A stretch of 34,125 nt of DNA from a virus: IMG/VR virus record IMGVR_UViG_3300012923_000010, positions 1 through 34,125 of that record; one strand, given 5' to 3'. Under the pieces are notes generated by a model. The model searched no databases and was not told the DNA's origin. It worked only from the letters and a program-made list of their open reading frames with translations. Of this stretch, positions 23,389-34,125 are shown in pieces. The position numbers and the translations under genes were made by a program. Within the stretch, counting starts at the first letter, position 1; the number at the start of each line of letters is the position of its first letter.

Positions 23389-23481
23389 TCACCGCGACCC
23401 CGCAGAGGCCAGGGCAACGACGGCCAGGATGCAGCCGACCACAATCACGACCTCGCGCCAGAAGACCTCGCGCTCGCTCAT
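23389..23481 (-). CDS. 30-residue membrane protein
   Basis: Starts at ATG 23481 with GGAG 7 nt upstream. A charged N-terminus (MSEREVFWRE) precedes one membrane helix (VVIVVGCILAVVALASAG). It is the first gene after the structured leader RNA at 23495-23619, so its translation is likely to be influenced by that structure. Single-span mini-proteins of this kind in phages can act as inner-membrane regulators. The function is unknown. Confidence 0.6.
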   Translation of the reverse strand: MSEREVFWREVVIVVGCILAVVALASAGSR

Positions 23482-23494
23482 GCCAGCACTCCAA

Positions 23495-23619
23495 GACGCA
23501 AAAATCCCCGAGGAACCGCTCCGAATCCGCTTGACGCCCTGATTTGCGAGATCGGGACTAGAAACGGAGACGGCTCCTCGGAGATTTTTGCGCCTAAGCA
23601 TCATGTTCCGATCTCGCAA
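23495..23619 (-). ncRNA. Structured leader RNA with two interleaved inverted repeats
   Basis: Arms 23571-23594 and 23495-23518 form a 24-bp helix in the minus-strand RNA with no mismatch, only three G-U pairs. On the plus strand those three positions would be A-C mismatches. A second perfect 12-bp pair joins 23608-23619 and 23544-23555. The arms alternate (second, first, second, first), giving a pseudoknot-type or mutually exclusive arrangement. The structure ends 3 nt before the Shine-Dalgarno site of the 30-residue gene and starts where a transcript from the promoter at 23626-23654 would begin. The interval 23482-23745 holds no gene I can support. Confidence 0.6.
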
Positions 23620-23625
23620 GCAGCA

Positions 23626-23654
23626 CACTTACGATTGCGGGACTTACCCGTCAA
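23626..23654 (-). promoter_or_regulatory. Candidate promoter for the replication gene block
   Basis: Minus strand: -35 TTGACG (23654-23649), 17-nt spacer, -10-like TAAGTG (23631-23626). The -35 is close to sigma-70 consensus, the -10 poor. A start 6-7 nt downstream would coincide with the first base of the leader RNA. The direct repeat TTACCCG (23644-23650, and again about 15 nt further) overlaps it and could be an operator. Confidence 0.4.
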
Positions 23655-23718
23655 GAAATTACCCGACAGCGATCGAAAATAGCGCGGGTGAAGACGCACG
23701 CACGCTTACATGACCCGC

Positions 23719-23739
23719 TGTTGATAACTCTGTGGAGAA
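23719..23739 (-). other. Pair of DnaA-box-like 9-mers (candidate origin element)
   Basis: Minus strand TTCTCCACA (23739-23731) and TTATCAACA (23727-23719), three bases apart. Each differs by one base from the DnaA box TTATNCACA. They lie in the only long intergenic stretch of the window, and the phage encodes a DnaA domain IV protein at 21995-22468. Confidence 0.35.
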
Positions 23740-23745
23740 AAGTTC

Positions 23746-33849: not shown

Positions 33850-34125
<276 letters not shown>

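Follow-up and report, generated by a model that had tools for sequence, protein, structure and literature searches.

A candidate two-helix leader RNA ahead of the early genes of a metagenomic phage and six other phages

On the minus strand of a 34,125-base phage sequence (the window, meaning the whole stretch of DNA analysed), four segments lying ahead of the early/replication genes pair in the interleaved order b-a-b'-a', and the leader RNA that they would form is probably a built-in switch controlling the early genes. The same layout was found in four metagenomic relatives and in two isolate-derived phages, Leptolyngbya phage Lbo-JY16 and Pseudomonas phage AH02; of these seven members, only the last two are aligned homologues, and position and wiring recur among the others with unrelated sequences. 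Compensatory changes were observed in the longer helix (a:a'), and in a nested folding model the shorter helix (b:b') was formed before it. As parts of a working model, we infer a transcript, termination or attenuation by a:a', antagonism by b:b' and a signal that tips the balance. The reading that we prefer, a two-state co-transcriptional leader of the early/replication operon with a:a' as terminator or pause and b:b' as its antagonist, is given about an even chance of being right.

The element in the window

The features of the region were as follows.

23605..23619, minus strand: arm b, at which the RNA is predicted to begin
23571..23595, minus strand: arm a, containing A5 (plus-strand T run 23585-23589)
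23544..23558, minus strand: arm b', partner of b
23494..23518, minus strand: arm a', partner of a, with U5 (plus-strand A run 23500-23504) after the GC-rich half-helix
23649..23654, minus strand: -35-like hexamer TTGACG, the best sigma70 match, by which transcription would begin exactly with the first base of b
23626..23631, minus strand: weak -10-like hexamer TAAGTG, 17-nt spacer, 2 of 6 consensus positions matched
23489..23493, minus strand: Shine-Dalgarno TGGAG, immediately following a'
23389..23481, minus strand: 30-codon ORF MSEREVFWREVVIVVGCILAVVALASAGSR, the nearest gene downstream of the leader, which includes a hydrophobic stretch
23653-23644 and 23668-23659, minus strand: two exact direct repeats TGNCGGGTAA, 15 bp apart, overlapping the -35 of the leader

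The element covers about 126 nt of an intergenic stretch (about 23482-23745) and reads, on the minus strand, b, 9 nt, a, 12 nt, b', 25 nt, a', TGGAG and the ATG at 23481. The long arms are 25 nt each and 88% complementary on the plus strand, and in minus-strand RNA they form 22 Watson-Crick and 3 G-U pairs. This agrees with an earlier sequence-only reading, in which the three differences in the long helix were all G-U pairs on this strand; the pair spans 25 nt (23494-23518/23571-23595). The short arms (23544-23558/23605-23619) are 15 nt each, 93% complementary and interleaved with the long pair. They had been described as a second, perfect 12-bp pair; the interleaving and 12 consecutive Watson-Crick pairs were found, but the full pair is 15 nt long, with 14 pairs and one A-C mismatch. 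In sequence, a' with its U5 after the GC-rich half-helix resembles an intrinsic terminator. An ORF kept across the element was considered and rejected, as the frame is open in the window but G001, one of the relatives, has a stop ahead of the next ORF.

All recognised phage genes of the window lie on the minus strand and include those for a RecE/YqaJ-like exonuclease, SSB, HNH proteins, a methyltransferase, a terminase-like protein, a DnaA C-terminal-type HTH protein and a DUF1376 primosomal-type protein; a tyrosine integrase is absent from the window fragment itself. The 30-codon ORF was not conserved in the relatives. In this single sequence, the TGNCGGGTAA repeats (23644-23668) are a candidate operator for a DNA-binding regulator. 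Upstream of the leader, positions 23719-23741 carry GTTGATAACTCTGTGGAGAA, which is similar to a DnaA-box-type sequence, with one mismatch to TGTGGATAA; it lies near the gene for the DnaA C-terminal HTH protein and may mark an origin region. The contig ends in approximately 200 bp of near-perfect CGG/TCG triplet repeats (33924-34122), possibly the point at which assembly stopped.

Folding of the window element gave z = -6.2 on the minus strand, with none of 200 shuffles as good, and z = -2.9 on the plus strand. Ranking by duplex energy with long loops gave no discrimination in this GC-rich genome and was replaced by ungapped arms, the detector being two ungapped helices in the order b-a-b'-a' with their scores summed. 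The interleaved pair scored 62.7, against a best of 51.5 in 100 dinucleotide-preserving shuffles of the whole 34-kb minus strand.

Recurrence in relatives and isolate-derived phages

A terminase search yielded three distinct relatives with terminases 66-71% identical, namely G001 (L010/L012), G003 (L015/L017) and G004 (L021/L023); G002 was a near-identical fragment of G003 without the element region. G005 (L034) was found by a DUF1376 search. The b-a-b'-a' layout was present in all four, with arm sequences unrelated to the window and to each other, and in each it lay directly after a tyrosine integrase gene (PF00589) and ahead of replication genes; the integrases of the group are only about 25% identical. 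Arms of the window and the four relatives measure 25-36 nt (a) and 10-15 nt (b), and the connectors L1/L2/L3 are 9/12/25 in the window, 1/7/13 in G001, 5/6/12 in G003, 6/5/8 in G004 and 5/8/13 in G005. Close homologues of the window's downstream protein or DnaA-like protein were not found, and terminase scans of genome contigs gave no match. Eight viral-contig matches to a 17-mer of one arm were dismissed as chance, being in unrelated sequence and having no partner arm.

The placement of the element between a promoter and a Shine-Dalgarno sequence at the head of the early/replication block, as the sequence-only reading had it, was found again in the four relatives and the two isolate-derived phages. 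From promoter matches, the RNA would begin with the first base of b in the window and G005, and no more than 3 nt away from it in G001 and G003; G004 had no clear match, and several -10 boxes were weak. A Shine-Dalgarno-like sequence closely follows a' in the window, G001, G003 and G004. Since each phage has a different gene directly behind the leader, control would be exerted at the level of the operon and not of one protein.

When 1.37 Mb of phage DNA was scanned (both strands, tight connector limits, some loci overlapping), the window element was the top match, and the four best loci were those of the window, G004, G001 and G005, with scores of 53-63. The best unrelated locus, a tandem-palindrome array, scored 47; G003, whose b helix is shorter, fell below this value.

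Eight annotated phages, chosen by DUF1376 or integrase similarity, were examined, and the layout was found in one, Lbo-JY16 (L113 10552-10645), 18 nt ahead of an annotated gene and behind TTGACT-16-TATTCT. A blastn search with this leader led to AH02 (71.5% identity), in which the element lies at L120 527-623, just ahead of gene 51. Both elements head an early operon and have no adjoining integrase; their presence in isolate-derived phages makes laboratory testing possible. Six phages sharing the gene after the Lbo-JY16 leader (D3, PAJU2, phi1, CF57a, EV13 and PP9W2) lacked the element, as did Microcystis phage Mae-JY30. Lbo-JY16 and AH02 may share a common ancestor with the window group or may have converged on the same layout.

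Between Lbo-JY16 and AH02, 7 of the 19 a:a' pairs differ, and all seven differences are double-sided changes from one Watson-Crick pair to another, with no pair broken. These compensatory changes are the strongest single evidence, at the level of sequence comparison, that a:a' is selected as a helix. Arms changing without compensation, which would have spoken against the sequence-only reading, did not occur in the relatives. A five-base L1:L2 pairing, UCAGU/ACUGA in Lbo-JY16, becomes UCAGC/GCUGA in AH02, and in each of the two phages L3 folds into a small hairpin. The arms b and b' are nearly identical in the two phages; together with the flanking AATCAG and CTGA.CTGTCCGCCAA they are kept between L120 527-590 and L113 10552-10614, and a/a' vary. 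In view of this conservation, b may be bound by some factor common to the Pseudomonas and the cyanobacterial phage. In AH02, a' runs into eight T, which in sequence is the signature of an intrinsic terminator.

The three G-U differences had also been taken to point to selection on an RNA. The compensatory changes in a:a' support selection on the RNA, and the G-U argument alone is weak: with strand-neutral arm limits, six members gave 14 G-U against 6 A-C (one-sided p = 0.058), marginal evidence for the RNA strand by itself, and in G001 and AH02 the sense strand had no advantage in the z-score of the whole-element fold. The strand was assigned mainly from the promoter, the Shine-Dalgarno sequence and gene orientation in the relatives.

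In G005, a tRNA 3'-half (L034 4434-4485; score 29.8 bits, gathering score 29; E = 0.00026 for a short-stretch search) lies about 50 nt beyond a' and, from its sequence, is probably the attP core; no tRNA-half match was found beside the elements of G001, G003 and G004. The G005 leader would thus lie between integrase and attP, so that integration would part it from the replication genes. This location, the DnaA-like genes nearby and the marginal wobble evidence are consistent with an element acting as DNA and not RNA, that is, attP arm sites, a replication origin or a cruciform. We regard that explanation as very improbable: in nearly every member the element is flanked by a promoter-like and a Shine-Dalgarno-like sequence, both in the same orientation, the 5' helix is without exception the weaker one, the U-tracts are on the RNA strand, and no integrase is beside it in AH02 and Lbo-JY16.

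A second stretch complementary to arm a was observed in G005 directly after a' (L034 4386-4414), with a duplex energy of -31.7 kcal/mol and none of 200 shuffles as good; arm a may therefore have two partners there.

Folding order and proposed mechanism

Nested minimum-energy folding of the growing transcript completed b:b' first in all seven members, and a full switch to a:a' followed in all seven once a third to four-fifths of a' had been made. The weaker pair comes earlier and the stronger later in every member, which for six independent cases has a probability of 1/64 by chance.

In the two-state leader that we prefer, the RNA would begin at arm b or a few bases before it, and once b' is made a local b:b' hairpin would form, keeping arm a in its loop. 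As a' emerges, the longer a:a' helix would become the more stable; since the pairs interleave, it could be completed only if b:b' opens. The outcome of this race would set how much transcription enters the operon: a:a' would be an intrinsic terminator or pause with long-range pairing and a wide loop, and b:b' the antagonist built into the leader.

U-tracts of at least five are located within a' or after it in the window (U5), G003 (U7) and Lbo-JY16 (U6), such tracts being found in 0.1-0.2% of equal-length stretches of each phage's own genome (0.18% in the window); with the U8 of AH02, four of the seven members have a U-tract after or in the a:a' helix. Because these rare tracts meet or lie in a:a', transcription attenuation is probably the output. 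G001, G004 and G005 have no U-tract at a', so intrinsic termination is not uniform; their output may be a pause, Rho-dependent or different. Complementarity between an arm and the ribosome site common to the members was not found when b, a, L2, b' and L3 were checked for a hidden anti-Shine-Dalgarno sequence.

If both helices formed at once, the 5' end of the RNA would instead be a large H-type pseudoknot, a fixed cis structure that could, for example, bind RNA polymerase as put RNA does in antitermination or shield the 5' end from decay. The element does stand at the head of an operon and begin close to the transcript start or at it, as HK022 putL stands immediately after PL (PMC9378689). On a rough estimate of backbone reach, the window connectors (9, 12 and 25 nt) may also be long enough for the helices, so that full formation of both is possible there. 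By the same kind of estimate, the G001 connectors of about 1 and 7 nt are too short to bridge a helix of 29 positions, and those of G004, at 6 and 5 nt, leave little slack for one of 36; as the pairs interleave, both helices in full are unlikely in these two phages. No loop or arm sequence is conserved between groups, which argues against polymerase contact, and putRNA consists of two separate stem-loops in about 70 nt, not interleaved. The pseudoknot is considered unlikely. The suggestion of the sequence-only reading that the two helices may be alternatives is favoured over it by the G001 connectors and by the order of folding.

Near-perfect helices of 19-36 positions at the 5' end of an mRNA are good substrates for RNase III, and the a:a' helices are of this kind and length, at the mRNA 5' end and with arm sequences free to vary. 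A double-stranded processing or stability site, with a:a' as a target of RNase III or a protection for the mRNA end and b:b' in an accessory role, would account for these properties, but it leaves unexplained the second interleaved helix of 10-15 pairs in all members and the U-tracts in 4 of 7; we hold it to be decidedly unlikely.

Comparison with known regulatory RNAs

No element matched a family in Rfam 15, and no description of the layout was found in the non-subscription literature searched. The element recurs as a candidate phage leader RNA that would escape homology searches, because its wiring is kept and its sequence is not. Should it work as proposed, early phage operons carry a two-helix competition switch without a visible sensor domain.

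The C4 antisense RNA of P1/P7-like phages (RF01695) is, like the element, a leader RNA in which two pairs of segments are complementary. Its covariance model gave no match at the gathering score in the window or relatives.

Closest in mechanism are attenuators with mutually exclusive helices. Like the element, trp-type and riboswitch attenuators are 5' leaders that precede the first gene and set a helix formed early against one formed later that resembles a terminator. The element differs in having no conserved leader peptide and no aptamer or sensor domain that could be found, in helices that interleave as b-a-b'-a' rather than share one arm, and in a wide terminator-like loop of about 40-55 nt. 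Interleaved helices between promoter and first gene, one replacing the other in nested folds as the RNA lengthens, were seen in all seven phages, strict exclusivity by connector length only in G001 and G004, and a GC-rich helix with U-tract in the window, G003, Lbo-JY16 and AH02 and not in G001, G004 and G005.

Closest in role are put RNA and the P4 CI/seqA pairing. HK022 put RNA is likewise a promoter-proximal structured phage RNA heading an early operon; putRNAs are about 70 nt, with two separate stem-loops and sequence similarity to one another (PMC9378689), whereas the elements are 94-126 nt with interleaved helices. The P4 immunity leader (seqA, CI RNA, seqC) likewise has leader pairing at the head of the replication genes of a temperate element, and acts by premature termination (PMC4825925), the mode only proposed for the present element. 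In P4 the antisense RNA is processed and its targets are separate sites, whereas complementarity in the element is within the leader only; no arm recurred over at least 12 nt elsewhere in the window genome as a trans target.

The P4 case suggests a form of RNA immunity, in which a short leader from the lysogen would act in trans against an incoming phage of the same kind, its b' pairing with b of that phage's nascent leader to favour a:a' and termination, as P4 CI RNA does with its own leader. Several observations fit: the context is temperate (integrase in 4 of 5, the window and four relatives), none of these five has an HTH_3-type repressor above the family cut-off (HTH_3 family only), the arms differ wholly between phages with pairing kept, as expected of a specificity element, and P4 does stop its replication genes by antisense pairing in the leader that leads to premature termination (PMC4825925). 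Against this, the interleaved order bars one continuous trans duplex of two leaders, the P4 genome itself has no such interleaved pair, b/b' are nearly conserved and a/a' vary between Lbo-JY16 and AH02, which argues against b as the specificity part, and the direct repeats over the window -35 suggest a DNA-binding regulator. RNA immunity is thus thought quite improbable. A self-contained immunity and lysis-lysogeny switch, in which a leader of approximately 100-125 nt would be sensor, terminator and trans-acting product through competition between interleaved helices that keep their wiring as their sequences diverge between phages, would be a long shot. Where no HTH_3 repressor gene was found, the two-state leader may help to keep early genes off.

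Other structured sequences were observed in these genomes. Lbo-JY16 has a match to int-alpA RNA (RF02996; 51 bits) among its tail genes (L113 29298-29361), G001 carries a cluster of 17 tRNA genes (L012 14205-18042), and G004 has a palindrome array with a period of about 33 nt downstream of its DnaA-like gene (L023 1667-1816).
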